NCBI GenBank assembly: GCA_900128395.1
Contig: LT649255.1
Span: 1-57,991 of the forward strand
Direction of reading: 5' to 3'
From: Stramenopiles sp. TOSAG23-2
Lineage: Eukaryota > Sar
DNA length: 57,991 bases
The notes beneath the pieces are model-generated. The model had not been told where the DNA came from. It ran no database searches and saw only the letters and a list, made by a program, of their open reading frames with translations. The translations under genes and the position numbers were made by a program. Positions 2,710 to 36,971 of the stretch are shown piece by piece (positions within the stretch are counted from its first letter, which is position 1; each line of letters begins with the position of its first letter).

Positions 2710-3582
2710 ATGTCCGTGTTTGATATTAAAGAAGAAGCATTTGAAGTCATCATTGATGGTAAAAAATATGTCGGCCATTTAGCCTACCAAGAACTTTCGC
2801 CAAGACCGTTAGTTCTTATATTCCCAAATGTAGCTGGATTGAAAGGGTTTGACCAGCAAAAGGCATATGAAATGGCAGAATTGGGGTACGTTGGTCTTGC
2901 AGTTGATTTGTATGGTGATCATACTATTCCATTCAAAGATCGTGAAGACGCGTTGGGATCAGCCTTGCCGCAAATCTTTGGGTTTATGAATGAATTATTA
3001 TGTGATAAAGTTGAGTTACATAAAAGAATGAAAGCATTTTTGGATGCAGGTTTAGCACATCCTGCGGTGGATACATCACATGGATGGGCTGCTACAGGAT
3101 ATTGTTTTGGTGGAGCATGTGTTGCAGAATTAGTTCGTGGTGGTGATTTTAATCCACGTGGTGTAGTATCATTCCATGGAACCATTGATGCACAACCTAT
3201 GACACTGGATCCCAGTGTTCCTGCACCAGCCATTAAAACAACAGTGCCAGGAAATTATTCTTCCGATACTAGGGTATTAATTGAAAATGGCGAACAAGAT
3301 CCATTTGTACCTGATGCAATGATCAAAGGTTTTCGTGATGAAATGAATGCAAATGAGGTTATGTACACAATTCATAATTATGCACAAGCTGGGCATGCAT
3401 TTGCAATGCCAGATCATGGTCCTGGACCTGGAATCCCTGGAGTTGGATATCAAGAACGAGCACATCGTTATTCCACACTTGCAATGCGTGATTTTTTTCG
3501 TTATGAAGTCTTTCCAAATGTTGGTCAAAGATTAGTTGGGTTAGATCAATTGCATTACCATGGCTCTATTGCTTCGTTGTAA
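2710..3582 (+). CDS. dienelactone hydrolase family protein
   Basis: A 290-residue alpha/beta hydrolase of the DLH family, which hydrolyses esters or lactones by a Cys-His-Asp triad. The nucleophile sits in GYCFGG (Cys132), the acid in GEQDPF (Asp197) and the base in QAGHAFA (His229). An FPN turn near residues 38-40 takes the usual oxyanion-side position. There is no signal peptide or membrane segment, so it should be cytosolic. Length is close to eukaryotic carboxymethylenebutenolidase-like proteins (about 240-290). The ATG at 2710 is the first in the open frame and is preceded by A-rich sequence. The natural substrate cannot be read from the sequence. Confidence 0.9.
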   Translation: MSVFDIKEEAFEVIIDGKKYVGHLAYQELSPRPLVLIFPNVAGLKGFDQQKAYEMAELGYVGLAVDLYGDHTIPFKDREDALGSALPQIFGFMNELLCDKVELHKRMKAFLDAGLAHPAVDTSHGWAATGYCFGGACVAELVRGGDFNPRGVVSFHGTIDAQPMTLDPSVPAPAIKTTVPGNYSSDTRVLIENGEQDPFVPDAMIKGFRDEMNANEVMYTIHNYAQAGHAFAMPDHGPGPGIPGVGYQERAHRYSTLAMRDFFRYEVFPNVGQRLVGLDQLHYHGSIASL

Positions 3583-3817
3583 AAAGATGATATACACGAA
3601 AGTATTAAAAAATGTATATGTGTATATACATGTATATGTATATTATATTAATGAACAAGAAGAAGAAGAACGTGTGGAAATTCTAGTATATTAGTTTTTA
3701 TATTTAATACTCCATGTGATGTCAAGTGTGCATGTACACAAAAGGGTAATATAAAAATGACTATAAACAAAAAAATAATTGAGATATCATAAAGTTTTGA
3801 AATAATATTTTATCATA

Positions 3818-5740
3818 TTGATTTTTGTAAAAATTCTAAAAAAATCATATATTTTATCAATATCGTTGAAGAAAAATTCAAGTGTATTGTACATAGATGT
3901 GGAGCAAGAAAATACAGGCGATCGATGGCGTGGTGAATTTAGTGCGAAATACATCGAGCAAATCACACAAAAAACTGGTAATTTTAAACGTTTTGTAGTA
4001 TTTGCTAAAATGTTAACAGTTGCGTTAGGACAAAAAAGTGAAACAGTATTTGTTGATTTATTAACATATAATGATTTGGAAATGTTGAAAAGTCGCAAAA
4101 CGGGGAAAGGAAATAATATATCTGTCAACGCATCGTTTGGCAGCAATCGTAGCAGCAGCAATAACAAGAAGCGTTATTTAATATTGACCTATGCCGTCGA
4201 ATTTGACCGTGTTCATTACCCGTTACCTTTGGCATTTGAAAAAGAACCAGACGTTGAGTCTTTAAAACGTACAGTGCAACGTTTACGAAAAGATATAGCA
4301 AGGAAAGATAAGATGATGAATGGTACTGCGAAAAAATCTTCCACTGCTGCTAATAATAATAGCAATAATATCATGATGGAAGATTATGAAGGGGATGGCA
4401 ATACAACTGTTATTATTGCAATGAGGGAAGAGTTAGATGCATTACGAAAACAAAATAAAAGATTAAAAAATAGTTCCAAAACTACGACAAATGCACAATA
4501 CGAACGTTTAAAAGAAGATTCAACGTTGGAGATCAAACGTCTTCGTAAAGAATGCAAATCGTTACAAACGCAATTAAATTTAGTTGCAGATGATCGTGAT
4601 AGAATGCGTGGTAGATCAGCTGCTCAAAGTTTGAACCAAAGAAGCAACAACGATGTATCAAGGCAATTAAAGATTGTATCGAAAAAATTAAGAAATGTTG
4701 AAAAAGCATTAGATTCGGAAAAAGCTCAACATAATCGTACGAAACAAAAAGCGCAGAAATATGCGAACAAAGCAAAGGCGGAAGTTAGCCGTTTAAAAGA
4801 TCAAATTAAATCAATGCGAATACAAATACGCGATTTGAAAATATCAAACAAACGCCGTGCAATGGTTTCACGTAGTCCTGGTAATAGAAGTGTTAGAAGT
4901 GTTAGTAGTAACAGAAGCAGAGGTAGAAGTTCAAATATTAACAATAGATCACGCACTTCCATTCGTACGAGTAATTCAAGTATACGTAGCCGTTCCTCGT
5001 TTGGTAGCAGTGCAAGCCGTTCCAGATCTCCTAATATATCTACTAGATCAAGACGAAGCAATAATACATCAGGAAATGTTAGGAAGAAAAGAGTAGTTAA
5101 GAAAAAACCTGCTAATACATCTACTACAACTAGAAGAACAAGGAAAACAACACGTACTCGAGTGAATGTATCAAATAACTCCAACCTGTCCACCGGAAGC
5201 AGAGGTAGTATTCGTAGCAATCGCAGCAATCGCTCGACACGCTCTACAAATAGTGTTAGAAACCGAAGAAAACCATCTCCATACAATAGTGGTTATTCAT
5301 CAGCCGCATCTCAATCAAGTGTTGAAAGTGGAAAAAGAACAAGAATAGCAAAGCGAAAAGTTAGGAAGAAGAAGAAATCTACAGCAAAAACGACAAAACG
5401 TAGAATTACAAATACAAGAAGTCCATCTGCAGAGAGGAGAAAAAAGGAAATGTTACAACGTGATAGAATGACCGTACCGACTAATAATAGTAAGAGGAAA
5501 GCCAATAATAAAACGAAAGCACGGCCACCACTATCATCATCATCAAGTATTAGTAATATTAATGTACCACCAGCACCACAAAGCAAACAACCATCCATCA
5601 TGAAACCACCTGAAAGTCCAGGATTAAACGATACTTCCTTTGATGCCAATACGGAAATGGCTGATATTGATAGACGTTTAAATGCATTACAAGATTTTTT
5701 AAAAGAAGCGAAAAATGGAAATATTAATGTGGAGGAGTAA
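3818..5740 (+). CDS. CCDC61: CCDC61/VFL3-like basal-body protein, 5' end unresolved
   Basis: CCDC61 (VFL3 in Chlamydomonas) organises centriole and basal-body fibres; it has a SAS-6-like head and a coiled coil. The head is clear: DRWRGEF, ITQKTGNFKRF, DLLTYNDLE, and KRYLILTYAVEFDRVHYPLPL aligns with the end of the head. A coiled coil follows (about residues 145-345), then an Arg/Ser-rich basic linker, and finally a conserved tail, MADIDRRLNALQDFLKEA, as in animal CCDC61. The open frame has no ATG before the head: a stop lies at 3803-3805 and the frame opens at a TTG at 3818. The true start is therefore probably in an upstream exon spliced near 3869, where the frame first aligns well with the family. 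The first 20-30 residues are missing from this model. Confidence 0.85.
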   Translation: MIFVKILKKSYILSISLKKNSSVLYIDVEQENTGDRWRGEFSAKYIEQITQKTGNFKRFVVFAKMLTVALGQKSETVFVDLLTYNDLEMLKSRKTGKGNNISVNASFGSNRSSSNNKKRYLILTYAVEFDRVHYPLPLAFEKEPDVESLKRTVQRLRKDIARKDKMMNGTAKKSSTAANNNSNNIMMEDYEGDGNTTVIIAMREELDALRKQNKRLKNSSKTTTNAQYERLKEDSTLEIKRLRKECKSLQTQLNLVADDRDRMRGRSAAQSLNQRSNNDVSRQLKIVSKKLRNVEKALDSEKAQHNRTKQKAQKYANKAKAEVSRLKDQIKSMRIQIRDLKISNKRRAMVSRSPGNRSVRSVSSNRSRGRSSNINNRSRTSIRTSNSSIRSRSSFGSSASRSRSPNISTRSRRSNNTSGNVRKKRVVKKKPANTSTTTRRTRKTTRTRVNVSNNSNLSTGSRGSIRSNRSNRSTRSTNSVRNRRKPSPYNSGYSSAASQSSVESGKRTRIAKRKVRKKKKSTAKTTKRRITNTRSPSAERRKKEMLQRDRMTVPTNNSKRKANNKTKARPPLSSSSSISNINVPPAPQSKQPSIMKPPESPGLNDTSFDANTEMADIDRRLNALQDFLKEAKNGNINVEE

Positions 5741-5861
5741 AGAAAAGAAGATGAAGTGTGTATGTGTACGTTTAAATGCATTACAAGATTTTTTAAAAGA
5801 AGCGAAAAATGGAAATATTAATGTGGAGGAGTAAAGAAAAGAAGATGAAGTGTGTATGTGT
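5674..5861. repeat. 94-bp tandem duplication at the CCDC61 3' end
   Basis: Copies 5674-5767 and 5768-5861 appear identical. The unit contains the last 22 codons and stop of the CCDC61 gene plus 3' UTR. The first copy supplies the real stop. Confidence 0.9.
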
Positions 5862-6518
5862 GTTTAATTATTTCGTATTTTTAGAGTGTGCGGGGAGCAA
5901 AATATTTAAAAAAAAAGAGAGATTTGGTATAACAATAATTTAAATAATATATTATTACGAAAAATATATAAAAGTACACCCCGTCTTTTAATTTTATTTC
6001 TACTTGTGTGATTAATTCCTTTACGGCTCTCAAAAGAATAACTTAACCACAAGCCCAATATTAATATATCTATGCATATCGATCTCACAATATGTGTCAA
6101 TAACTCCCGAAACAGGAATTACCGATATGAGGTATTTTATAAATTTTAGTTGTTTTATCAATTTATATTATATTTCTTATATTAACTACGTACATTTTTT
6201 CTTCATTTTATACAAACGTTTGTACACATTTTAAATTAACATATATATATACATAAAATGTTTAAACACAGTGTCATCAGTATCGCATGTGTGGCAGGTA
6301 TTTCACTTTTATTACGAGTATTATTTTCGTGAAAACTTTTATATATATATGTCAATAATTTTGTATAGTGTCTAATGCATAATTTTAATCAGTATCGCAT
6401 GTGTGGCAGGTATTTCACTTTTATTACGAGTATTATTTTCGTGAAAACTTTTATATATATATGTCAATAATTTTGTATAGTGTCTAATGCATAATTTTAT
6501 TTTTTTACATTTTACTTT
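5862..6518. other. intergenic AT-rich gap with a 112-bp duplication
   Basis: No gene recognised. Within it, 6277-6388 and 6389-6500 form another direct duplication, identical by eye, just before the stop of the next minus-strand gene. Confidence 0.6.
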
Positions 6519-10052: not shown

Positions 10053-13000
10053 TTACAGCTCCCAAAATTTTTGTGTAGCAGCAATACAAAATTCAGCAAA
10101 ATTACTTGGTGATAAATAACGTCGAATGGATGATTGTGAAAGCCAGCGAGTTATAGACATTGGAAAACCAAGCTGATGGCTTAAACGGGGGAGTCTGTTC
10201 ATTGCATGTTGCCTTGCATGAGTGTCCATTTTTTCATACCCAGATGTCACTGCATAACACGATGCTAAAATTCCATCAACCATAATTGTACCAGAATACG
10301 TGTAAGGGCTGTAATGTTTTGAATGAAATTCTTTTGAAATACTCAAAACTTTCGACAATCCAGTTTCAGTTATCAAATGCATTTTTTCTGGCTCGATATA
10401 TTCAGCTTCGATAAAACTGCCATTACCAATTTGGATCATATGCGATGTAGATAAGGTTATATTATATCCATTTTCTGTCTTAATTGACACATACATTTGA
10501 TTGCTTAAATGACGATGATTGTATGCCATATCATGGTAGTAAACTGAAAATGTTGTTGGTGAATCTTGAACAATATCACCGAACTTTAATTCATCCAAAC
10601 GTTTTCTCATGTTGCCTTTTAACATAACAGTGCTATGTGGAGGGAAACATGGAGCTTTGGCAGAAAATGTGAAATCCAAGTCCAAAGGTCGTTTTACAGG
10701 ATATAATGCAACAGATTTTAACGCACCAAAATCTGATTCTAAATTGATAGAATCTACTACTGGAACAGCTTGAATAACTTTTCCATTACCACATAGAGGT
10801 CTACCGGTAGCCTTGTTATTACCAGACCAATCATTCCATTTGCCGTCATGGGTCCATAAACATCCATACGGTTCACGGGCATTGCCATTTGGTTCCCCGC
10901 TATTCCAATTAGAATAAGAAAGACTATCACCATTTGCCCATTTCCATGCACCGTTTTCAAAAGTCAATCCAATCCAACATTTTTTTCCCCCACATACTCC
11001 GTGCGCATTATTTTGCTGTTCTTGACTTGTAATAATAGCCAAGGTGGTCCCTTTACCTGCACAATATGACTTTGCATTGTTAAAGCTCATTTCAGTATCT
11101 CCAATGAAATAACTTTCTTTTTCAACAATTTGCTGAGGCAGATCAAGCACTTCATCACCTCCAACTTTTATTTTCGATATTTTCGCTGTACATTTTGTAC
11201 TCATAGTTTGTTCACTAGAAAATAGACGAATAAAATCAGAATTGTCACAACCTATTGTATCCGTCCAAACAGCTGTGTTTGCGGGTTGGCCATGTATTGT
11301 TTTACAATGCCCATATTGGTTGTTACTACAACATTTACCTGCACTAGTATCAGGTCTGGTAAAATCGCAAAATGCATCATCACATTCAGTACCTGATGAG
11401 CTAAACATAAGTGCTGTGCAATCCCTCCCAATCACTTTAACACTTCGAATGGTATTACATCCAATATCATTTCGACCGCAAGCTTTTACATTTCCATCTA
11501 CAACAATTTTATTCCCTTTCCCCTGCCTATCAAATGCTACAACTATTTGGCATTTGTTACCTGTATTCCTCGGGGTGTCGACTCTAACAGCACCTATATT
11601 AAGTTGACAATTCGTTTTAGTATCCACCCAATAGTATTGAGTCTCTGGCTTATTTTGAAGCGCCGTACTCTGCTCATTTACAACTTCGCATAAACTACCA
11701 TCGTTTGAGTAAATTCGTGCACTACATTTCCCAATTGTGGCACAACATATATCACTATCTGTATTTAACCCGCAGTTTGTTCCTTTACATGGTATTTCAG
11801 AAGCCTTTAATTTTGCTGTAGTTCCTGTTGGACAATTACCGTGAAAATCAGCAAATAGCGAATTACATTTAGCTGCACAGCATTTTAATTTATCATCGGT
11901 TGATCTACATCCATATTTACTTGTACACCGGACATTTGATAAATGTGATGGAATATCACCATCATTTACATACATTTTATTATTGAAATTAAATCTTTGT
12001 GCCATGTTACATTCATCGCGATTTTGACAATTTGTGGCCGGTTCGATAATCAAAGATTTTATGATACTATTGTCGGCATATGCATTTAAATTTGCAACAT
12101 AATCTTTCAACAGTGCATAACAATTTACATTTTTGTATTGGAAATTTAATTTCACCGTATCGTTGAAATATACCAATATTGTACTGGTATTAACTTCTAT
12201 TGTTACCTTTGTAACAGCATTAAATGGTATTGGTTCCGCAACAAATTCTTTCATTTCAGATCGTGATGTGACAATGGTATATGTTTGTTCAGTCTTTTCA
12301 TCCCTAGGAACATCTTTAGCTTTACTGCATAGAGGTCTAGCCTTGTTATTACCAGAATTATCAGACCAATCATTCCATTTGCCGTCATGGGTCCATAAAC
12401 ATCCATATGGTTCACGGGCATTGCCATTTGGTTCCCCGCTATTCCAATTAGAATAAGAAAGACTATCACCATTTACCCATTTCCATCCACCGTTTTCAAA
12501 AGTCAATCCAATCCAACATTTTTTTCCCCCGCATACTCCGTGAGCATTATTTTGCTGTTCTTGACTTGTAATAATTGCTAAGGTGGCTCCTTTTCCTTCA
12601 CAATATGCTTTTGCATTGTTAAAGCTCATATCAGTTTGTCCCAAGGAAAACTCACCACTACTAGCTGTATTTGGATCGTAACAATAATCCCACTTGGGGC
12701 CGGCCCCGTTCCCTGAACATCCGGGAATGGGGCGCCCATCCTCGCGCTGAAAACATTTTAGTCCCTGCGCACATTGCCAATCACCATCACATTCTCCCAC
12801 GCACCGTTGAAGATTTGTAGCTTGGCCGTCATTTGAGCCCGACAGTTCAATACTATCTCCGGCACAACTTTCTTGCATTCCGTTCGTATTTGTAAATTCA
12901 TATAATTGTCCACCACTTCCAGCATTATGGTTTGGACCGGTAGTACAATCATCCTTCGGGCAATTGCAATGACGTCCATGTTCATAAAAAAAATATTTAC

Positions 13001-16000
13001 TTCCTTTACAACCTTCTTTACCATTTAAGCGGCTCACGGCATCGGCGCATTCTTGAACAGTATATTGCCCACCGCGTTTTCCATATCTTGGATCGTCCAT
13101 ATGTATATAAGAATTACATCCTTTGTTATGCACTGGTATATAATCTTTTGAAAGTGGATATTTACACCCTATTCCTTCACTCAGTCTCAATATCGTATCA
13201 TCTTTTGTTTCTCCAATTTGAAAAATATTTATAATACCACGGTTGTTATTATTACTAATATTTAAAGGTTGAATTTCAAATGATATTTTGTAACATTTTG
13301 GCAAATACGCATTTGTAGCAATTTTTGTAGTATCCGGAACCAGTGCCGTTACGCTGCTATTTATTAATCTTTGCATCTGGAAATCATCCTCATTTTCCCC
13401 ACAAAATTCTTTTGGATTGGAGATACTATTACTACAAGTTGCATTCAACGGTTCACAGCATTTAAAGCGATCATGTAAACTTGAACAAGATGTACCTACA
13501 CAATATGTTGAATCCAATAACGTTTTATCAATAGGCGTTAATCCATTACAAAATGTATTTATATTGGATATACTTGCACATGTTGCTTTGCAACACTTTC
13601 CTTGATCTGCCAGTTTTGTACATTTTTCACCATCTGTGCATAACGATATCATTTGATCATGAATAAAAACATCACCGCTATTGATGTAAATATTTTTAAT
13701 TTTTGATATGCGTTTTAAATCTTTGACGCTGGAGCTCAGTGTTGTACTCCCATCTGATTTCATGCAGCAATCATCTGTTGTGTCAAAGCCATTATCGGAA
13801 TCTCTGGACCATCCAGAGCTACTGCGAAAATTACCGCAATTATCTGTACCACAAATTAGATCCCCTGCACACTGATCATTTGAATCGCAATCACCATCCC
13901 CATATCCAATATTGTTACAGCCACTATCTTTACCCCTACATGAACTTTCAACTTGTATCGTGCTTTCCTCATTAGATAGCATGCCTTCCTCAATATTTTT
14001 ATAACCCCCCCAACCGACATGAAGATATGCATCATGTATCGTATTTTCAAAACGTAAAAACGCGCTTGGTATTACAACTTCATGCTGCTTTCGATTCAAA
14101 TAATAAATCTTAAGACTTGTGTCATCTACTTCAATCTGCATATTGATGTACCAAGGAAACGTACCTAAACCACTTGATGTCATAATGTTCTCAGTGAGTA
14201 AAGTATCATAACGTCCATTATCAACTGTGTCAATAGATGCAATCAATTTATTTTTTAAAAGCCATAAACAAAAAATGCAATCACCATTACGTACAGTCGT
14301 CGGTGCTTTTGGCCTCTCGTCACAACAAAATGTTTGCTGGTGACCACAAGCATCAACATCAGGATATCGAGTTGCATCAGGGTGTGTATGGCATGGATGA
14401 GGATCTGGTGAATAAAGTGCACTATGCAATTTACAATTACGATTTGCATCGTGACTACTATACACTACCCATTCATCAACACCATTAGACACCGGCACCC
14501 ATTTTTCTCCCGTTTTGTGAAATTTATTCACAGTTGTTGGCTCGCATAGTTGCTGTTGAGAACATAGCGATTTTCCTTGTTGCTTGCAAAAGGCTTTATG
14601 TCCATTATATGATTTACTTGGATTACCATGGTATTGCTTCACCCCCTCATTTGTTCCTCCTCCATTACTAGCTGTATTTGGATCGTAACAATAATCCCAC
14701 TTGGCCCCACCCCCGTTCCCTGAACATCCGGGAATGGGACGCCCATCCTCGCGCTGAAAACATTTTAGTCCCTGCGCACATTGCCAATCATCATCACATT
14801 CTCCCACGCACCGTTGAAGATTTGTAGCTTGGCCGTCATTTGAGCCCGACAGTTCAATACTATCTCCGGCATGATTTGCATCATCAAAAGTAATAAAATT
14901 AAACGTACTGTTAAACTTGCTTAACCGAATGATATTCTTTGCATTGCTTATAATATTATCTGTGTCTATCTCTGGTGTTGCTGCGCATCCTTCTAATTCA
15001 CCGTTTGAATTTTTAATATCCTGACCACCAGACATTTCATATAATTTTCCATCACCTCCAGCATTACCGTTTGGACCAGTTGTACAATCATCCTTTGGGC
15101 AATTGCAATGACCTGAATTTTCATAAAAAAAATATTTACTTCCTTTACAACCTTCTTTGCCATTTAATCTTTTCACTGCATCAGCACATTCTTGTACAGA
15201 ATATTTGCCGCCCTTTTTTCCATATCGTTCATCATCCATATGAATGTATGATCCACATCCTTTGTTATGAACTACTATGGGTGAGCCCCAACCTGCTACA
15301 TTATCTTTCGTTACTAATGTATCAGCTAGCAGTATATCAAATTGCATTTTAAAATTGTTTTTAATTTGGATAACACTGTTGCTACTGGCGGTCATTTCAT
15401 TGAGATCGTATGATTCTTTATCAACATAATTTAGCATGCTTGTCTTAGCAGAGCAAAACGAATTCCTTTCCGAAAATGGTACACTAGCACAAGTAGTACT
15501 ACAACAAATTTCTAAATCATGCTTTGATTGACATTTAAATGTACTACAAGCTCGATTTTTACGAGTTGGATCATAGATCCTATTCACAGCAGTGCACATT
15601 GCAGGAGTGACATGCTCCCCACATGTTGGACGACAACAACGTACGCCATCTACTTCCGGTTTACACGGATTATCCATGCATTGAATCATATTAGCATTTT
15701 TTATTAAGCCAGACTCTTTTCCAATTTCATTGCAAAATGCATCACTATCTTCAATCGAATCGCATCTAGGAAGGCAGCATCGGGAACCATCGTTTTCAAC
15801 GGTACAAGCATGCTCTTTACATAATACACTTTTTGCATTTGGTATTAATTTGCTTCCTGGGTTCTCTGTGCTTTGAATAAAACGTGATGATGATATATTC
15901 TGGCAAGTATCATCGACTTCAACACTCTCCTTGCAACATTGGTAGATGCCCTCTTTGGGACATGATCCATACGTTGTTGTACCACCTGGCTTGACAACGT

Positions 16001-19000
16001 ACCCTGGTTGACTGCAACCCCTGTGTTCATCACCAGGTGCACAACAATCATTGCCATTATCGACACAAATATCGGATCTACATGGCTTGCCATCATTTAC
16101 AGCAGAATTTCTTGGAGTGCATTGACCAGAATAACTTCCACCATCTCTAGTACCGCCAACTTTAAACGACTTTAACCGATCATATCCTGGCCCACTCTGT
16201 CCATTTACGTCTCCTTCCGCTACACAGAAACTACCAGTATATGTCCATATTTGACCATTTCCATTTTCTTTATCTGAAACTTGGATATTAACATTCTGTC
16301 CAGTAGATCCATAAAGTCGAAAGAAATCATTCTGATGAGCACGTCCCTCTAAATTGATCCAAACATTTGGTTCAAAATGTGTATACTCGCCACAAAAACC
16401 TTGATCATCACCACAGCAACTGGAACATGAATCATCTTTTGGGCAACCACAACCACTACTGCAATAAACTCTTATCCGATCAATAGTTACAATTTCTTTT
16501 TCTTCTTCGCCTATTAGTTCTTCTGCAAAAATATCTGTTTCATATGGCTCTGGTACTTGACAAATGCAATGGCTATATCGAAGAAAACTGTTACAGTTTC
16601 CTGGATTTGCAAGCTGTACTATGAGAGTAATGAGAAAAAAAAAGCCCCAAAATCCGCAAAATTTCACTAAACTCACAGTATCTTTACGCCTCCATCGAAC
16701 TGGTTTATTGCAACATATAACTGCAGCTGCCATGGGAGTACAGCAAGGATGCCTCACTTGATCAATCAAATCAGGAGATTTGTCAAGTAGCATATTACTT
16801 ATTTCTGAACGTCCATGAACACAACTAGCATACAAAGGCGACCGCCCAGACCATGCACGATGGTTTTCCTTAGCACCATGCAATAATAATAGTCTTGCAA
16901 TTTTAGTATTTCCATTAAATATTGCACACATTAAAGGAGTATTGTATTGCCCATTCAAACTTAACGTAAAAACTTCGAAATGAAATATCAAGCAATACAA
17001 AAAGACAATCATACCAATAGGAAACTGTTGATCTACATTTGGATAAAAGTCACCCAAAAACCAAAGCATCCCTATTATTGTACCTGTAATAAGGCTTATG
17101 AGTTTCCAGAACATCAAGTTGCATTTAAATTGTCTCTTCTTTGGATCTAAGTGCACAAGAAGCAAGATAACCACGACTAATCCGTATACAAAGGCCAACT
17201 GTATGGGGTGCAGGGGTCCCGTAAAAGCAAGCTGGTCATCAGGCATATTATAATCAACATCAATATTTTGCCTCAACTTTTCATCCTCTTCGTATTCCCT
17301 TGACAACATTTCAAATACTTTGTTAAAATCGTTTCGTTGGCATGCCCGAAATAATTCCATACCACTCACAAGTGGGCGATCTCCTTTTCCTTTTTTTAAA
17401 ACATTGTTACTGACTAAATCAGCTAATTTATTATCGTCGTCAGATAATGCAATACCTAATTTTCTTTTATATGCAGCAATTTCATTTTTATATTTAACAA
17501 TAGGATTACAACGTACTCGTTGTCCATTTAAATTTGTAATAGTATCCTCAATATGTTTCATCGAACTCCACATAAATGTCAATCCACAACCACCATTCCG
17601 TATGGCTTTTCGCAAATCACCGTGCGCTTTATCACCGCACATCATTACATCACACCCTGCATTTTTCATAATAAACATATTGCAATTAGTGCATTTTTTC
17701 CCTAATTTTTTCATCAATGCCAATGTCGCTTGATCATCTTGGATTTGTTGCAACTGTTTTGTTTTCTTACCAACTTCAGGACAAACGTGCGTTTCAAAAT
17801 CTCCATCTTTAACAGGCTGATGACATTGTACACAAACCCCTTGGCCACATGGACAACGCTCAACACGCGCTACCACTTTATCTTTACGTAAAACATACGT
17901 TGGATCTACATCCACAAGATAATTTCCGCATTTTGCTGGACATTCGAAAAATAGTTCTTCAAACTCCTCTTGTTTCCTCATGAAACGAAATTGAAATTCT
18001 TTTTCAATTACACCACGCTTTTCTAAAAATGACAAGGCTTTGCCACCGATTTTTCCATACCGTGGGTCTTCTCCTTTCGGGGCACTTGCCTGGCATACAG
18101 GACAATAACCAGGAAATTTACCAGAGTTCATAACCGTTTTTAAATGATATTGTATGCACTCTTCGCAAAAAAAATGAGTACATTCTGTTGAGATTCCATA
18201 TTTTTGTGGCAAAGCCCAACATATCAAGCACTCTTCCACATTAGCATTGTTGTCATCCTCTTCAATTACTAATGCTTCTGTCATTTTCGAAGCCAATCCT
18301 GTCCCCATGCAAACAAAGCATTTATCAAAACGTTCCACTTCTGTTGTAAATTGCTTTTTTAAGATATCGACTGGGGAAGGCGCAATTTTGTTATCACCCC
18401 ATTTACGATTTTCAAGCCTTTTTTTTTCTTCTCGAGAAATTTTTCCATCTTCCAGCGCAACAGCAATATTTGATGTTGATGCTACTAAAGAATTATTAAT
18501 TCTTTCATTTTCTCGATTTATTGCATCTTCACCATATACAAATTTTTCAGCAACCTGTATGTAGTATGTATGATATGGGTTAGAATAATTATTTTGATAT
18601 ATTCAAATAAATGTACATATATAAATTGCTACTTACTTGACGTTTACCTGTACCTTTGCACAAAAAGCATGCTTGCTTTATTCCTTTATCGGAAACTTCA
18701 GGCAATTCACTTATCATTAATTTTTGCATCTCAATACCATAATCAGCAGGCATTGTCATTTTTCCAAGTGTCCTTTCATCGATTGATGGTTGATGAAGTA
18801 CTTGTAATGAACCCATTGGTGCTCTTGCCTCGTAAAGTGGCGTAGCAGATTTAACAAATGGACCACTGGCTTTATTAAAGTATCTTGTAGAAACAACGTC
18901 ATCCTCAAATTGAACCCATACATGAAATGATGTACATGTTTTACCATCTGATTTAGTATGAAAATTCCGCATATCCCCATGCGTAGCTGTATGCCCTTTT

Positions 19001-19635
19001 AACGGTGTATATGCTTTTTTTCGTGCCAACTCTGCAAAAGCATTTTTCAACCCATAAAATGTACCGTCGGATAATAAACCATCAATTTGTTCCATAATAC
19101 GTTTATCTTTAGTGGAGAAATGATACACTTTTTTTGAGCCCATCAAAGTGCAATAAAAAAATTTCATTCCTACAACATCTTCAAATCCACGAATATCTGA
19201 ACCATACATATTAATTAATTTAGTTATGGACATACCAATATTTCCAGATTGCAATACATGCGTTGGTAATTCTTGTTCATGCTTCATATTCTTATTCTTT
19301 AAAAATCCATTGTAATTATAAGCAAAGGTTAATAACCATGCATTGCCATCTTTACCTTCAGAAGCAAACAAACCAACCTGATTTCCAGGTCGACGACTTA
19401 CACCAGGAGCTGTTATAACAGTTTTACTTTCTCCCCAGTACAAATCACCATGTTTAATTTTTAACATATCCGCAACTGCCGTTTTATCATAATCTTCCTC
19501 GTCGCCATCATTATCCCATAAATTTATCATTTGTTCTTCTTTCGGTTTTTTTTGTTTATTTAATTCCAACGCTTGCTGTAACGTTAATTCTTTTGCATTC
19601 ACTAGCGCTTTTAAATCATTGCTTAATGTTTCCAT
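10053..19635 (-). CDS. giant membrane RBR E3 ligase: ankyrin, TM, C-type lectin and Hog/Hint domains
   Basis: Two exons (19635-18637 and 18554-10053; an 82-bp GTAAGT...CAG intron at 18555-18636 keeps frame) encode about 3166 residues. Order: an unrecognised N-terminal region with CFLCKGTG (about 323) and CFVCMGTG (about 411) zinc-like motifs; RING1 (442-487), IBR (535-592) and RING2 (621-661) with the transthiolation Cys634 in NAGCDVMMC, so an RBR ubiquitin ligase; ankyrin repeats (about 730-950) interrupted by a hydrophobic hairpin (817-861); a transmembrane segment (961-983); a long Cys-rich region; two C-type lectin domains (about 2305-2412 and 2819-2922), both with EPN and WND sugar/calcium motifs; and a C-terminal Hint domain from Cys2969 ending with the Hedgehog-type LASCYAV (Cys3099). 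Inferred topology: ligase in the cytosol, lectins and Hint outside or lumenal. Exon 2 is one uninterrupted frame, so the RBR-to-Hint link needs no splicing assumption. The residue before Cys2969 is Pro, not the Gly typical of Hedgehog, and the TxxH motif reads STSH. Confidence 0.9.
10790..11100 (-). repeat. lectin-domain duplicate, second copy
   Basis: Encodes the second C-type lectin domain of the giant RBR protein. It is nearly identical in DNA to 12320-12640, with only scattered single-base changes by eye, far closer than expected for old domain duplicates. Confidence 0.85.
12320..12640 (-). repeat. lectin-domain duplicate, first copy
   Basis: Encodes the first C-type lectin domain, paired with 10790-11100. 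Both copies keep GEPNG and KWNDW, so both should bind calcium and mannose-type sugars. Confidence 0.85.
12663..13125 (-). repeat. ectodomain two-module block, second copy
   Basis: Contains a Cys-rich module (VHNKGCNSYIHMDD start, about residues 2145-2220) followed by a GDSIELSGSNDGQ module (about 2231-2295). Both modules recur at 14690-15290. The second module is visibly richer in G and C than the rest of the window. Confidence 0.85.
14690..15290 (-). repeat. ectodomain two-module block, first copy
   Basis: Contains the VHNKGC module (15285-15035) and the GDSIELSG module (14880-14690), here separated by about 50 unique residues. The GDSIELSG DNA is nearly identical to 12670-12863, differing at only a handful of bases. 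Confidence 0.85.
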
Positions 19636-20230: not shown

Positions 20231-23200
20231 CTACCCCGTCGTGTCACGAAACAATGGATTTAAATAATCCCACTCCCGCATCCAACCGGAATCCATACAT
20301 AAACTTCCTTCACTACCATCATCTTTAACTAAAATTTCAACAACCTCATCAAACATATGAAATGGTAATCTACTAGACATCTCCAATGATAATCGATCAT
20401 GTGCTCTTCTATGATAATATCGATCCCAAAACCATAATAAACGACGAAAGCTAATGACGATACTACCAGGATTTTGCCAATTTTTCTCTTTCCTTTTTAA
20501 ATATTCTACATCTTCCACCAATGTTCCATGAATATTTGAAAATATCAATAAAATGATAGTGGTATTTAAACAACATAAATTTTCTTGGGATATTTTTGTA
20601 ACATCAATAGCAGTGCAAATATCACATATAATTTGTTGTCGATTTGTTTGCAAATGATGATGAAATTTAGTTTTTCCGACATATAATGATGATTCTGGTG
20701 TTTCTTTTCCCTCCGCAGTATTAATACTAGTATAATGTTTATTCATATGAAATCGTGTATCATATTTTGGATCATCTGCATCCACATCTGCATATAAATA
20801 AACTTCGTTATTGTTGTTTCCTCTTAAATCATTGTTGTGAAAACCCAACACTTCAAATTCTAAAGTCAGCATTAATGAGCGAATAAACACATTCGAATCA
20901 ATTAAATGCGTTGATATTACATCAAACAATTGGCGAAATTCCGCAGGAGTTAATAATGAATCTAAATATTCCAATATAACGCTATTGAATTTAATCATTT
21001 CACCGAGTAAATCGAAATTTGTTTGCATGCCATTACAATCATTACCAACTAAATTGAGCAAATCTTTCACTAAATTGGGTAAAAATTTCTTGTGAGAGGC
21101 AACAATTATTTGATCTTCGGGCTCTGAACCTCTTAAAAAACTTTCAATAGTACTAGCAAACCAAAACCTGTATGCACTATAGCTTTCTTCCGTTTGATAT
21201 GTCATCAATTTAATGATCTTGCTTAACAAGCCATTTTTTTGCGTCTGTCCTTCTATATCTTGGTCAAATATCATTTTTTCCTTTTCCTCCGGGGTGATCG
21301 TTGATTGATGAACACTTAATCGTTCAAATTCAGCACATGCATAATTAAAAGCTTCAAACATCCCATTTCGTGTTCCTTCCATTATTTTATTAGTAATTTC
21401 AAAACGAATTGATAATTGCTTCTTCGACAATAATTGCATGCGATTGTTTATTTGCGTATCTTCCCTTTCCATGAAATTATGTGCTAGCCTTAGAAATTGG
21501 ACCTTTACCGCGGATGCAACGTTACATTGACAACCTGGTCCATGTGGACCATGAGTTTGTCTAGGCTCCGGTGTCCAATCTAATACATCAAAAAGCATAT
21601 TTAACAATGTACCTAATTTTCTCCTTTCAAAATATTGCTGCAAGTCTATTTTCCTTTTTCCGTGGCATAAAATAGCCAATACAAATAAAATTTCAACTAA
21701 AAAGGTTGTTATGATTACATCTCTCATTGTTATTTTTGAGTTGAATATCGTGTCGTTGTTGTCGTTGTTGTTGCTACTACTATTCCCATTTGTATGCTGA
21801 CTATCCATTCCAGATGTCCCAATTGCATCACGTAACACTTCAAATATTTGATGTAGAGATAGCTTTTCCATCATCGATTTTTTTGGCATATTACCAACAT
21901 TAGTAGCTAAATATGTATTATACAAATCAGTGTAAACATTATCTTCATTATCGTAAAAGATTTTTTCAAATTGTCCCATATCACTATACCATTCTTCTTC
22001 CTCCGATTTATCATCCGTCAATGATAGAACTTGTAACATTGCTCGCGATGGAATCAAATTATTAAATGTACCCAATTCACCTTTGTAACGCCTTGCTGTT
22101 GGTAAGCTTTTAACCGATTTGTAAATGAGTAACATAAATCTGTCTAAAATTTCTTCGTTACCGACTAAAAATGCATGATTTCTATCAATTGTTTTCAACG
22201 TACGTCGTTTTCGCATTCCTTTGTCTTTTAATAGTTGGATTTTATTGGATTTCTTCTTTTTCTTTTTCTGAGATGATGATGATAACGGAGATGATGAAGA
22301 TGATGTTGTGCTAGTTGGAGTCATCACGGAGGATGAAAGTGCATTATTATTATTATTATTATTTATGTCATTATTGTTATTGGCATCATTGATATTTGGC
22401 AATGGAGAATTACTATTTGAATTAGGTAATGTTGACGAAGAGGAAATGCTCAATCCTACGTTCATATTATCATTTAAATCATTGATAAAATTAGTTGGGC
22501 TATTGTTGGTAATGATGGTATCAACATTATTGGTTTTACTTTGGCTCGGACTTTTAGTATTCATCTCATTATTATTATTATTACTGTTGTTGTTGTTATT
22601 GTTATATACGCCAACTACTTGCTCATCCACTTCTTCTTCTTTTTCTTTCACATTGGACATGTCAGCAAAAATAAGTAATGCAAATAAACGACATAATACG
22701 CATAATTGTCTTTGAGAAAAGGTAAGGATTCTTTGGTAAAAATTTGGCACATCTGCTAGACAAAACATTTCATCGCGAATGGAAAAGATTTCCTCAAGCA
22801 AACCTACCGCCATGTCAAATGTATCTCCTTTTAATAAATACTCAAAAATGTGCAAAATAAAATGATTCGATCCTAACTTGTTTAAATCACCTAAATGATT
22901 GAAAGTAAACATTAACTCGCGTAACGTACTACCAGTCTCATTCATTACTTTATATACAAGTTTTCTTTCCTTGCTTCTATTTTTATCATTATAAGTAGCA
23001 TCATTCTTACTCATTCGATTATTATATTTTTCTTCAAACAAAATTGGAAGCCTAAGTAAAATTTCTTTTAAATAATTGATACCACCAAATTGAACAAAAT
23101 AACCAGCAACATGATTAGTCTTGGTTGGGCTTCTGTTCCCTGTATGCAATGCACTCGTTGCATCATAAAGAATTCGACTTAAATTTTTCAACGTAGACAA

Positions 23201-23506
23201 TACTTCACTTGTACGGTCTTGATGAACTAAATCTGCATAAGAAATGTAAATTTCTAACTCGGTGATAATACGCATCATGCCATTTGAATCTTTATTCACA
23301 CGTTCGAGCAAAAGCGGTGGTAATGTTTGTATTATTGGCAGTTTCGATATTGGGACGTTTCCCACAAAACTTCTACTTTTCAAATCAACATGATCTACTG
23401 ATTTTTTTATTTTGATCACTTGATAGTCCTCTTTATTATTCCAGTTGTTTTTATTCTTCCTTCCAACAATTTGACGTGACAATACAAAATTTAATATATT
23501 TTTCAT
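20231..23506 (-). CDS. TRPC4AP: TRPC4AP/TRUSS homologue
   Basis: A helical-repeat protein of 1091 residues matching short transient receptor potential channel 4-associated protein. In animals TRPC4AP is a substrate adaptor of the DDB1-CUL4 ubiquitin ligase and also binds TNF receptor and TRPC channels. The best-matching stretch is the C-terminal half, with phrases such as FDLLGEMIKFN, LIDSNVFIRSLMLTLE, ENLCCLNTTIILLI and RRLLWFWDRYY, which align with the animal protein in order. It is longer than the human protein (about 800) chiefly because of an Asn/Ser/Lys low-complexity insert at about residues 298-430 and a further Asn/Asp run near 585. The ATG at 23506 is the first in frame. Its neighbours on both sides are RBR ubiquitin ligases on the same strand. 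Confidence 0.85.
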   Translation of the reverse strand: MKNILNFVLSRQIVGRKNKNNWNNKEDYQVIKIKKSVDHVDLKSRSFVGNVPISKLPIIQTLPPLLLERVNKDSNGMMRIITELEIYISYADLVHQDRTSEVLSTLKNLSRILYDATSALHTGNRSPTKTNHVAGYFVQFGGINYLKEILLRLPILFEEKYNNRMSKNDATYNDKNRSKERKLVYKVMNETGSTLRELMFTFNHLGDLNKLGSNHFILHIFEYLLKGDTFDMAVGLLEEIFSIRDEMFCLADVPNFYQRILTFSQRQLCVLCRLFALLIFADMSNVKEKEEEVDEQVVGVYNNNNNNSNNNNNEMNTKSPSQSKTNNVDTIITNNSPTNFINDLNDNMNVGLSISSSSTLPNSNSNSPLPNINDANNNNDINNNNNNNALSSSVMTPTSTTSSSSSPLSSSSQKKKKKKSNKIQLLKDKGMRKRRTLKTIDRNHAFLVGNEEILDRFMLLIYKSVKSLPTARRYKGELGTFNNLIPSRAMLQVLSLTDDKSEEEEWYSDMGQFEKIFYDNEDNVYTDLYNTYLATNVGNMPKKSMMEKLSLHQIFEVLRDAIGTSGMDSQHTNGNSSSNNNDNNDTIFNSKITMRDVIITTFLVEILFVLAILCHGKRKIDLQQYFERRKLGTLLNMLFDVLDWTPEPRQTHGPHGPGCQCNVASAVKVQFLRLAHNFMEREDTQINNRMQLLSKKQLSIRFEITNKIMEGTRNGMFEAFNYACAEFERLSVHQSTITPEEKEKMIFDQDIEGQTQKNGLLSKIIKLMTYQTEESYSAYRFWFASTIESFLRGSEPEDQIIVASHKKFLPNLVKDLLNLVGNDCNGMQTNFDLLGEMIKFNSVILEYLDSLLTPAEFRQLFDVISTHLIDSNVFIRSLMLTLEFEVLGFHNNDLRGNNNNEVYLYADVDADDPKYDTRFHMNKHYTSINTAEGKETPESSLYVGKTKFHHHLQTNRQQIICDICTAIDVTKISQENLCCLNTTIILLIFSNIHGTLVEDVEYLKRKEKNWQNPGSIVISFRRLLWFWDRYYHRRAHDRLSLEMSSRLPFHMFDEVVEILVKDDGSEGSLCMDSGWMREWDYLNPLFRDTTG

Positions 23507-23645
23507 TATTGTTTACACATATAAACTATATATACATAACAGTCTCCAAAAGGAATACAATACACTATATGAAGAAGAAAGAAGAAGAGGGGTGGAAAAA
23601 GTTTTCGATGTATAATAAACCTTTAAACAAAAGGAATGAAAGTGG

Positions 23646-24122: not shown

Positions 24123-26666
24123 TCACTTCTTCATTGCATTAAGCTTTACATTATTTTTTGCTTCCCATACATCCATTGGCGATATTACTGTTCCAGTAAA
24201 AAATTCCAAACCAACTAATTCATCATTTAAACTTTCATCAAAATTAAAATATTTAATTTTGAATTCCTCAGGTCTTGCTAATTCGTTATAAAAATTTGTA
24301 CATGCTTTGACTAATGTCGCAATTTGTGTAATAACATTTATTATTTGAATATCGCCATTTCCTAAATCAATAAAACTCGTAAATTCTTCTAAATGTGATT
24401 GTAATTTATCAACCATTCCTTCGAATTCATGATGTGTACTTTCAAATAAATTTAAAAAGCTTGCTTCTTTATTGATATAATACTTCATGGTATATACCCA
24501 TTGCAATACTTTTCTACATTCACGGACGCATTCGCATGCTTCAATCAAAGCAGTTGCCTGTTCCATCGCTCTATTATTTCTCAATGAAGTTGATGCCCAT
24601 TCCTTAAAGTTCTCGCTTAAAGCATCCGCATGCTCCGCGCTTTGTTCAGCAAATTTAAAACGTTGAACGTGGAATTCATATCGTTTCGTCAATTCTTTAT
24701 AATCATCTGAGTACTGCTCGGCAAAAGCAGCACGTTTTGCAGCCCCTGATAAAGTACCTCTCTTCTTAGCTTCTTGATACTTTGTACAAGCATAAAATCC
24801 ACCTGTACCTTCTCCATGTTCACTCCATGGACCTAGGCATAGCCAGCAAAATTCTCTACCACAACCACCTTCACTTCTTCTACATGTCATATGCATACAA
24901 CCGCCATCTTTGTTAATATTTCTTTTGCAGAAAGGGCATGGTTTAACATTTTGCGCCATCCATATATCATCTGTTGTACCACCTTTAAATTTCTTCTTTT
25001 CTATATTTAACCAATGATTTCGAGTTTCACAACTTACTGGAACATGTGGTGCCTCTTCACAACCGAAACACCACATGTGTCCACATCCAGGTTTGCATAC
25101 AATGCAACGATTTTCTGCTCTTAAACTTGGATACATAACAGCTTTTCCACAGCCCCTTGGGCAGTATTTTACTTTCTGTGTTTTTTGCACATAGGTTTCC
25201 AAAAATCCTTTTTTAAATAGATTTAAATGTTCTGGCGTTACACTTTCGACTATGTGTTCATTTATATAATTATTACATTTTGGCATTGGGCAAGGTGTAA
25301 ATATAAAACTGTATGAATTATTTTTTAATACTTTTGAGTTCAAATACTGTTTCCAACAAGTGTCACAAAAATAATGTCCACACGATAATGCTAATGTTGT
25401 TGTTGTAGATTGTAAGCGCATTAATTTAGTAGGAGACAAATCCATTTCATCTACTATTTCTTTTTTTTTACTAATATTATTATTATCTATCCCATTTGTT
25501 TTACTACTTTTACTTTGTTTCTTTGTTTTCGATGATGACAAAGAAAATGGCGAAATAAAACCTTTTTTTTTTGCTGTCTTCTTGATCACAGCACCTAATT
25601 TCTGCAATTTGTTCTTAAATTGTTTTATATCGTTATCGTATAATGTATTGCAATCTGGATTTAATGAATGTCCCCAATTTGGATCTATAAATAATGTTTG
25701 TAAGCCATTACAAATATCATTCATTGTGTTCATTGGTGACCAATCCTCGTTTAATATGGATAAACACACTGTACCATCATCAGGGTTAATATTTGGATGG
25801 AACATTCTGTTTTTTTTAAGGCAAATGACTGACTTTGGTGGATGAAATGGATAATTTGTTATAGGTTTTGGTAATGTAATTTGAAATGTACATGAAATTC
25901 CTGTCCACATGCCTTGACATTTGATATCAACATGGATAATCGACATATCCTCAACATTTGGTATCGATACATCTATATATTGACCACCATGTGTTTTTAC
26001 TTTTCGCAATTGTTGATGTATAGCTTTAATACCTGTTTTCATGCCACGTGATTTTTTTATTTTCTTTTTCTTTTTATATGTTTGCTTTATAGTATTATTT
26101 TGTTGTGTTGTTGCCAGTTGCTTTTTCAATAATTCTCGCGGACATGCTTTGCAGCCAAAACATATACTGCAATTTTTTTCGATTTTTTTACCATGTACTA
26201 ATGGACCATGCTTCGGCATACCGGCTTTTAGACATACTTTGTCCCGTGATTGTTGGATTTGAGAATCGTTCTCTCCTTCCCACCATAAATGACTCACTAA
26301 ATCTTCATTCCAGTCGTAACATATTAATATATGTGCAGCTGTTGAGTGAGTAACGCCACATTTGTCCATAATACTTTCTATAGTATTTTTAACAAAATTT
26401 GTAATTTTACTATTGTCAACAATATCGTAGGATTGCAATCTTTGCATAAATATTGTAGGCTTTAAATTATTTATATCATCATCTTTTCTTCCATAATCTT
26501 TACCATCAGTTTGCTCCTCATCATCACTGACATATTTATAAGGAGTATCGCTTTCATCACTATTGTATTCATACGAAGATGCATATGAATCTTCTTCATC
26601 TGAATATCCAAAAGCATCATCCGTATCTGAAGAATTGCTATTCTTTTTTTCTACTAATCTTGACAT
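24123..26666 (-). CDS. Ariadne-family RBR E3 ligase with an E2 (UBC) domain inside RING1
   Basis: 847 residues in one uninterrupted frame. After an acidic N-terminus comes a UBA-like region (about 90-150) as in ARIH1. RING1 begins at Cys166/Cys169 (NCSICFGC), but instead of its CxHxxC half an E2 fold follows: helix 1 (about 210-225), YPFHPP (about 272-277), RMFHPNINPDDGTVCLSIL with the active-site Cys301, WSP (309-311) and LFIDPN. RING1 resumes at C429-G-H431-YF-C434-DT-C437 and ends at C459/C464. IBR (502-546), RING2 (577-610) with catalytic Cys590 in KDGGCMHMTC, and a full Ariadne helical domain (about 640-800) complete the protein. The E2 HPN motif, active-site context and WSP resemble UBE2M/UBE2F, the NEDD8 E2s. 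Fusion of E2 and E3 would deliver thioester transfer in cis, which is inference. Ariadne ligases are known to be switched on by neddylated cullins. Confidence 0.93.
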   Translation of the reverse strand: MSRLVEKKNSNSSDTDDAFGYSDEEDSYASSYEYNSDESDTPYKYVSDDEEQTDGKDYGRKDDDINNLKPTIFMQRLQSYDIVDNSKITNFVKNTIESIMDKCGVTHSTAAHILICYDWNEDLVSHLWWEGENDSQIQQSRDKVCLKAGMPKHGPLVHGKKIEKNCSICFGCKACPRELLKKQLATTQQNNTIKQTYKKKKKIKKSRGMKTGIKAIHQQLRKVKTHGGQYIDVSIPNVEDMSIIHVDIKCQGMWTGISCTFQITLPKPITNYPFHPPKSVICLKKNRMFHPNINPDDGTVCLSILNEDWSPMNTMNDICNGLQTLFIDPNWGHSLNPDCNTLYDNDIKQFKNKLQKLGAVIKKTAKKKGFISPFSLSSSKTKKQSKSSKTNGIDNNNISKKKEIVDEMDLSPTKLMRLQSTTTTLALSCGHYFCDTCWKQYLNSKVLKNNSYSFIFTPCPMPKCNNYINEHIVESVTPEHLNLFKKGFLETYVQKTQKVKYCPRGCGKAVMYPSLRAENRCIVCKPGCGHMWCFGCEEAPHVPVSCETRNHWLNIEKKKFKGGTTDDIWMAQNVKPCPFCKRNINKDGGCMHMTCRRSEGGCGREFCWLCLGPWSEHGEGTGGFYACTKYQEAKKRGTLSGAAKRAAFAEQYSDDYKELTKRYEFHVQRFKFAEQSAEHADALSENFKEWASTSLRNNRAMEQATALIEACECVRECRKVLQWVYTMKYYINKEASFLNLFESTHHEFEGMVDKLQSHLEEFTSFIDLGNGDIQIINVITQIATLVKACTNFYNELARPEEFKIKYFNFDESLNDELVGLEFFTGTVISPMDVWEAKNNVKLNAMKK

Positions 26667-36454: not shown

Positions 36455-36971
36455 ATTTCAGAAATAAGAATGTAATACAAAGCTTAACAAGATAGAAAAT
36501 AATAAATATATCTTATATAAATATACAAAGAAAGGAATATATGTATATATATATATCTCATATGTATCTAGACACCTTTTTCGCGTTTCATCAATATATT
36601 TAATATTTATTATTAATTCAAAACAACTACTTCTAGACGACTTGTTTTGTTAATAATAATAAGTGACTTTGTTAAAAAAACTAAAAAATATTAATATCTT
36701 CCTATCAAATAACCACATAAATAGTATACTACGGATTATACTAATAGTGTAAAATATGTTTGAAAGTTGGAAAGTTGAAAAGTGTTTGTTTTATATAAAG
36801 AATAAAGATACTACATACAGCGTCAGACAGAAGAAACAAAAATCCAAAAATACGAGATACAATAGCAATGTAAGAATAGATAATAACGATCAAAAAAAAG
36901 ATTCAACGTATTCTTAACTATAGAATTAAAAAAACGATATCATAAATTGCTTATATATATATAAAATAATA
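36455..36971. promoter_or_regulatory. 517-bp divergent intergenic region
   Basis: Shared upstream region of the MINDY-3 and first SDR genes. AT-rich, with TATATA runs near 36540-36556 and 36955-36966 close to each start. No specific motif is identified. Confidence 0.4.

Follow-up and report, generated by a model that had tools for sequence, protein, structure and literature searches.

Genes for Hog domains have been described from dinoflagellates, apicomplexans, red algae, mosses, a cercozoan, a cryptophyte, a jakobid and a haptophyte, and the same account describes four proteins that carry a U-box, a VWA domain and a Vint domain (PMC2362128). These four are the nearest union of a ubiquitin-ligase type domain with a Hint domain that we have met. 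Here we describe a gene on a stretch of 57,991 nucleotides from a single-celled eukaryote, Stramenopiles sp. TOSAG23-2 (GenBank assembly GCA_900128395.1, contig LT649255.1, positions 1 to 57,991; this whole stretch is the window) whose predicted product appears to unite known kinds of domain in a new combination: an RBR (RING1-IBR-RING2) module, membrane-type segments, ankyrin repeats, a putative Cys-rich ectodomain with two C-type lectin domains, and a C-terminal Hint domain of the Hog type. Searches of protein databases and PDB sequences did not find the same combination, and none of the titles and starts of abstracts among the open-licence papers listed for RBR, lectin, ankyrin and Hint topics described it, in agreement with an earlier sequence-only reading that knew of no such protein. 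We judge it most likely that the encoded RBR protein is receptor-like or senses the lumen, and that its Hog domain would trim itself off and may leave a lipid on the ectodomain's end.

The gene is predicted from sequence to consist of two exons on the minus strand, running from an ATG at 19635 to a stop at 10053 and giving a spliced protein of 3,166 residues (Table 1). The remaining five frames over the DNA of exon 2 contain 102 to 338 stops each, and the longest open run in 200 mononucleotide shuffles of this exon was 149 codons, as against 2,849 in the real sequence. Codon-position composition is uniform along the exon, without a break. Translation places the motifs named by the sequence-only reading at the residues it gave, and its two structural claims hold: RBR through Hint lie in a single exon, and RBR, membrane-type segments, ankyrin repeats, two lectin domains and Hog-type Hint belong to one gene. 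We are highly confident of this architecture. The two lectin domains with EPN and WND motifs that it had proposed likewise match the PF00059 profile (57.2 and 51.2 bits; 93.6 bits in a Pfam search of the lectin half on its own), and domain 1 matches the mannose-receptor family and other C-type lectins in PDB. At the DNA level the two domains are 93% identical over 292 nt, and a homologue, P0007, has the flanks of domain 2 with the domain itself absent between them; domain 2 therefore looks like a young insert.

Table 1. Predicted features of the lectin-RBR-Hint gene, with positions in the window.
Feature	Position	Strand	Remarks
Exon 1	18637..19635	minus	Residues 1-333; start codon at 19635 and conserved N-terminal region; no match to a Pfam family
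Predicted intron, 82 bp	18555..18636	minus	GTAAGT...CATACAG; GT-AG borders, phase 0
Exon 2, stop included	10053..18554	minus	Single 2,849-codon frame, RBR through Hint
RING1	18093..18230	minus	Residues 442-487; zf-C3HC4 25.7 bits, above cut-off
IBR/BRcat	17808..17981	minus	Residues 525-582; Pfam IBR 19.5 bits, under cut-off 24.3
RING2/Rcat	17568..17693	minus	Residues 621-662; Cys634 at 17654-17652; GCDVMMC
Three hydrophobic segments	16953..17222	minus	Residues 778-806, 812-836 and 843-867; basic loop after the first
Ankyrin repeats	16770..16949	minus	Residues 869-928; Ank_2 35.9 bits; PDB ankyrins match
Hydrophobic segment	16602..16679	minus	Residues 959-984; preceded by basic residues
Putative Cys-rich ectodomain	10650..16601	minus	Residues 985-2968; 134 Cys, 7 N-glycosylation sequons
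DUF7495 domain	14397..14639	minus	Residues 1639-1719; PF24325 34.5-37 bits, cut-off 27
C-type lectin domain 1	12324..12632	minus	EPN and WND motifs
C-type lectin domain 2	10812..11093	minus	EPN and WND motifs; recent copy of domain 1
Hint domain	10248..10649	minus	From Cys2969; His3013, Ser3035...His3038 (TXXH), Cys3099 (motif J)
Tail, 64 residues	10056..10247	minus	After LASCYAV; located where Hedgehog has its sterol recognition region

The sequence-only reading had placed a Hog-type Hint domain from Cys2969 and proposed a profile search for it, and that search returned PF01079 at 85.8 bits on the Hint piece alone (cut-off 29.7; profile positions 10-183 of 213) and at 78.6 bits within a Pfam search of the whole exon. 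The piece also matches the Drosophila Hedgehog chains 6tyy, 6td6 and 1at0 in PDB with E values from 4e-13 to 3e-11. Cys1, the TXXH His and the motif-J Cys are all kept, with Cys2969, His3038 and Cys3099 equivalent to Cys258, His329 and Cys400 of the Drosophila protein. Thr326 is replaced by Ser3035, and the general base Asp303 by a natural His3013. Because of the latter change we class the domain as Hint/Hog rather than as Hedgehog, and sterol transfer by it is only predicted. A Vint identity was considered and rejected, since the exon has no VWA match (E up to 1) and motif J is present.

A database search with the Hint query gave six matches among 105 candidates (P0003 to P0008). Identity is 100% in P0003, 89% in P0004, 88% in P0005 and 81% in P0006, the last on a 32-kb contig; P0008 aligns only within the C-terminal half of Hint, over a portion of it, at 47%. 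Cys1, His3038 and the motif-J Cys are conserved in P0003 and P0004, while P0005, whose model begins after Cys1, retains the other two and P0007 retains Cys1, the sole one of these residues within its coverage. P0006 is broken at motif J, where its letters depart, and gives no support for that motif. P0003, on a contig of 907 bases, probably comes from the same species as the window; its first 13 residues differ, which we take as a contig-end artefact. On a separate 66-kb contig, P0007 runs contiguously from the last ectodomain segment (85% identity) through the linker into Hint, of which it has the first 23 residues, and the join of ectodomain to Hint is therefore observed twice, in P0007 and in the window.

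At the other end of the protein, the RBR module, for which the sequence-only reading had proposed RBR profiles, was recovered with a family profile: ARIH1 matched with an E of 4e-7, its active-site Cys aligning with Cys634, even though the Pfam IBR score stays under its cut-off. The order RING1-BRcat-Rcat and the fold are present. In the predicted structure, RING1 of HOIP and of HOIL-1 aligns with the RING1 part at about 3 A, and Rcat of HOIL-1 and of HHARI aligns with the RING2/Rcat part, a fold support that comes from prediction and with modest Z. In an alignment of seven members (A4, from which a paralogue on contig C242 was left out, being kept in alignment A2), Cys634 is invariant in 7/7, as are all 8/8 ligand-type Cys/His positions of RING1 and those of BRcat, and these positions stay fixed while identity drops to 39%. 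Pfam alone is insufficient for this family, IBR_1 matching 4/7 and IBR 1/7 of the same members (E up to 1). When the front half was searched against PDB, ankyrins dominated; with the RBR piece alone, RING1-only matches came first and ARIH1 followed at an E of 0.02.

Two observations touch this module. Just upstream of RING1, at residues 323 and 412, lie two CxxCxGTG motifs (CFLCKGTG and CFVCMGTG) that by eye resemble halves of a DnaJ zinc knuckle and that recur before RING1 across the RBR family. The C242 paralogue (2933-6010), an open frame of 1,025 aa in which no lectin was seen, carries RBR parts twice along with CxxCxGSG motifs; its first, partial copy is without the catalytic Cys, and in its second the +1 residue is His and the +2 residue Ile.

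To place the protein among its relatives, the RBR-ankyrin part was searched against 5.8 billion proteins, which gave 38 matches among 3,039 candidates. Five of them (P0009 to P0013) share the same RBR at 61-70% identity; the other 33 were dropped from the family as ankyrin-repeat proteins whose matches spanned 10-39% of the query. Ankyrin matches occur in each of the five, and each also resembles the first 400 residues of the protein (34-41% identity to P0009 over two stretches, 26-41% to P0010-P0013). In P0009 and P0010 the resemblance extends to a Cys-rich stretch near the start of the ectodomain (168-193 residues, 29-33% identity). In P0012, DUF7495 occurs three times and Lectin_C matches barely over its cut-off (24.3 versus 22.6); P0013 has a CH_2 domain and, by eye, one stretch resembling a coiled coil and no part rich in Cys. 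No Hint was found in any of the five at E up to 1; P0009 and P0010 end within the ectodomain and so say little, and P0012 is long and ends without one. Among 258 candidate long proteins (0.55-1.75 times 2,849 aa), none carried a related Hint at an E of 0.001, and six peptide patterns gave no match in viral contigs. In these comparisons, Hint is seen only in the window and in near relatives.

By hydropathy, the window protein has three segments separating RBR from the ankyrin repeats, and one more separating the repeats from the ectodomain. With a similar threshold, three segments precede the ankyrin repeats in P0010, P0011 and P0012, and two in P0009 and P0013. The basic residues before 959-984 favour a placement of the ankyrin repeats inside and of the ectodomain outside.

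A second lectin-RBR gene is present in the same genome. On contig C528 (5820-8098), two open frames lie next to each other with a predicted 83-bp intron between them; spliced, they encode, in order, a start resembling a signal peptide, a C-type lectin domain, hydrophobic segments (two clear, one weak) and a C-terminal RBR. Its lectin is 41% identical to domain 1 of the window gene and its RBR 38% identical, with the order reversed; the RBR would lie inside only if the weak segment spans, a doubt over topology that the window protein shares. Because lectin and RBR flank membrane segments in two orders, the pairing itself argues for a function, and the two genes together suggest a group of "receptor ubiquitin ligases".

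The sequence itself gives the gene, its domains, the conserved RBR-ankyrin family and the conserved active-site residues of Hint, and from these we infer the following mechanism. The RBR and ankyrin repeats would lie in the cytosol, and the Cys-rich ectodomain of 2,000 residues, with its two mannose-type (EPN/WND) lectins, would lie outside. In the secretory pathway, Cys2969 would attack the carbonyl of Pro2968, the resulting thioester would be resolved by the hydroxyl of a sterol or another lipid, and a Hint tail of about 22 kDa would be shed. The mature ectodomain would then be anchored at both ends, by the transmembrane segments and by lipid on its last residue, and glycan binding outside could be relayed to RBR activity inside, for receptor signalling or turnover via ubiquitin. 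We give this account, a multi-pass protein of RBR type with a cytosolic RBR-ankyrin part, an outside lectin ectodomain with a Hog-tethered end and signalling from lectin to ubiquitin, about an even chance. A more specific version, in which the protein belongs to a class of receptor ubiquitin ligases with a lectin wired to a cytosolic RBR, and here has a Hog-lipidated far end, pinning at both ends and maybe, with its natural His at the 303 place, an unusual sterol, is unlikely on present evidence. The sequence-only reading had foreseen either tethering or release of the ectodomain. Tethering is what cleavage could achieve. Release was rejected on geometry, since Hint is at the C-terminus and the lectin part remains joined to the membrane segments and RBR; a cut before Cys2969 would free only Hint and tail, the C-terminal 198 residues.

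Several observations weigh against the proposed mechanism, and each part of it has its alternative. In inteins, Pro at -1 is often unfavourable for cleavage. Here the scissile bond would be Pro2968-Cys2969, with Pro also in P0003, P0004 and P0007, as against Gly(-1)-Cys(1) in Hedgehog (PMC9163320, PMC13060885), and Ser stands in the TXXH motif. A genome search gave no match to oxidosqualene cyclase, although the assembly may be incomplete. The tail is conserved among near relatives, and it is helical only in a low-confidence AlphaFold model (pLDDT 32, from alignment A3 of 6 rows, mostly close relatives); its helical moment is at most 0.35, with no strongly amphipathic stretch. The Pro at -1, the Ser, the absence of a cyclase match and the low amphipathy of the tail, together with the His in place of Asp at the general-base position, favour a Hint domain that is present without lipid addition, acting by hydrolysis, using another nucleophile or being inactive, with some other role for the tail. 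This alternative falls short of even odds but is a serious contender. Opposed to it are the conservation of the three active-site residues in P0003 and P0004, the possibility that dietary sterol would be enough, Patched-family matches at three places in the genome (archaeal proteins match this family too) and the behaviour of the Drosophila Hint domain with an engineered D303H, which retained structure and activity with broader sterol acceptance (PMC9163320). Given that result, the natural His appears compatible with sterol transfer. On balance self-cleavage by Hint is probable, and lipid transfer is a more tentative prediction that comes somewhat close to an even chance.

Ligase chemistry is open to a similar question. 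In parkin, HHARI and HOIP a catalytic His follows the Rcat Cys at +2 (PMC3940038); in the present family that His is missing, with Val, Ile or Thr instead in all seven aligned members (GCD[VIT]MMC), and the zinc sites of Rcat appear incomplete, the second site not being evident. In the C242 paralogue, the partial first copy of the RBR has GGDDQMMC here, with the Cys absent; a neighbouring RBR within the window is canonical (GGCMHM). The RBR might then form no thioester, with RING1 working as a plain RING ligase or the whole as a pseudo-enzyme scaffold, which we consider rather unlikely in view of the invariance of Cys634 and of the RING1/BRcat ligand positions despite such low identity; the missing residue might also be replaced in function by another, such as the invariant Asp at +1 or the His in AHGD or SHGS. 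Thus, of the RBR ligase with catalytic Cys634 named by the sequence-only reading, the invariant Cys stands, and the ligase is uncertain because of the absent His and the incomplete-looking zinc sites. We favour a divergent RBR fold whose status as an active ligase is uncertain, and activity through Cys634 is finely balanced.

The location of the protein is subject to a further alternative, which we judge quite unlikely: a quality-control ligase of the endoplasmic reticulum (ER) or vacuole, in which lumenal lectins read immature glycoproteins, RBR marks them for degradation and Hog serves maturation. Multi-pass segments and an EPN-type lectin fit such a ligase, the C528 paralogue likewise pairs lectin with RBR across membrane segments, and ER lectins and ER ligases generally share pathways. 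The long Cys-rich ectodomain and the recent lectin duplication are more like a fast-evolving, outward-facing part, and the C-terminal letters have no KDEL-type ending, though Hint would be removed anyway. Were all four segments to span the membrane, RBR and ectodomain would lie on the same side, and we take one segment, probably the first, as non-spanning. As hydropathy leaves topology open, the "receptor-like" label of the sequence-only reading stands as to the membrane-type segments and is uncertain beyond them, with an ER-resident role a live rival.

An assembly chimera of two genes fused at the repeated lectin or linker segments is very improbable: the internal repeats (93% and 97% DNA identity, exact runs of 66 and 80 bases) and a middle join (about residues 1990-2715) seen in the window only speak for it, but the open frame is continuous with unbroken codon-position composition, a further close repeat copy would be required where the others of the 12 genome matches are only 30-51% identical, and two of the joins recur in homologues, that of the ectodomain end with Hint in P0007 and that of RBR with the early ectodomain in P0009 and P0010.

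Other genes in the window and genome touch on the same themes. Adjoining the lectin-RBR-Hint gene is a DUF3689 protein (20231-23512, minus; 193.8 bits). Beyond it lie an E2-E3 fusion in one frame, an E2 domain (79.8 bits) followed by the canonical RBR noted above (24123-26708, minus), and a frame for a MINDY-3/4 deubiquitinase (34427-36457; 226.8 bits), in which EF-hand and a RanBP-type zinc finger also match, though under cut-off; three ubiquitin-related genes, lectin-RBR-Hint, E2-RBR fusion and MINDY-3/4, are thus close by within 10053-36457. Elsewhere, a genome search with Lectin_C found at least nine places on 8 open frames, counts that are lower bounds given that the C528 lectin is not among them. 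A giant Cys-rich frame on C570 (3-8774; 2,923 aa, with an open 5' end) carries a C-type lectin domain and, by eye, a VWA-like end, and shares a repeat with the ectodomain of the window protein. The light-harvesting family PF00504 had no match in the genome search, as would suit a heterotrophic cell, for which the glycans of prey might be what the lectins read.

If the Hog domain works, Hedgehog-type processing would act on a membrane receptor and not on a secreted signal, which bears on the ancestral role of Hog, and the natural His at the general-base place lends itself to testing what was reported for the engineered D303H. If the RBR works, signalling from lectin to ubiquitin would cross a membrane within one chain, twice in opposite order in one genome, in parallel to receptor kinases. 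Our interest in the locus is high because, should both work, two protein-thioester chemistries, one on each side of the membrane, would share a single chain.

Among known systems, the PA-TM-RING ligases RNF43/ZNRF3 also link an outside binding part across the membrane to a ubiquitin ligase, and they differ in having a RING rather than an RBR, a single pass, a protease-associated domain in place of lectins and no known Hint. RNF19A/B (Dorfin, NKLAM) are RBR ligases with transmembrane segments; we know of no lectin ectodomain or Hint in them or in ANKIB1. ANKIB1 shares RBR and ankyrin repeats with the window protein (PMC3940038), and, compared with it and RNF19A/B, the RBR family here is without the +2 catalytic His. 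The U-box-VWA-Vint proteins likewise combine a domain of ubiquitin-ligase type with one that is Hint-like; in PMC2362128 their Vint is without motifs J, K and L, they apparently have no signal peptides, and no RBR, lectin or membrane segments are described for them. Closest at the C-terminus are the Hedgehog/Hog proteins (1AT0/6TYY; protist Hog, PMC2362128), which share a Hint domain with Cys1, TXXH His, motif-J Cys and tail. Relative to Hedgehog, the window protein has Pro at -1, His for Asp303 and Ser for Thr326. Several protist Hog genes have Cys-containing upstream regions, as here, and the N-termini described are mostly secreted or short, or GTPase-like or cellulose-binding (PMC2362128), whereas the Hint domain of the window gene follows a multi-pass RBR-lectin protein.

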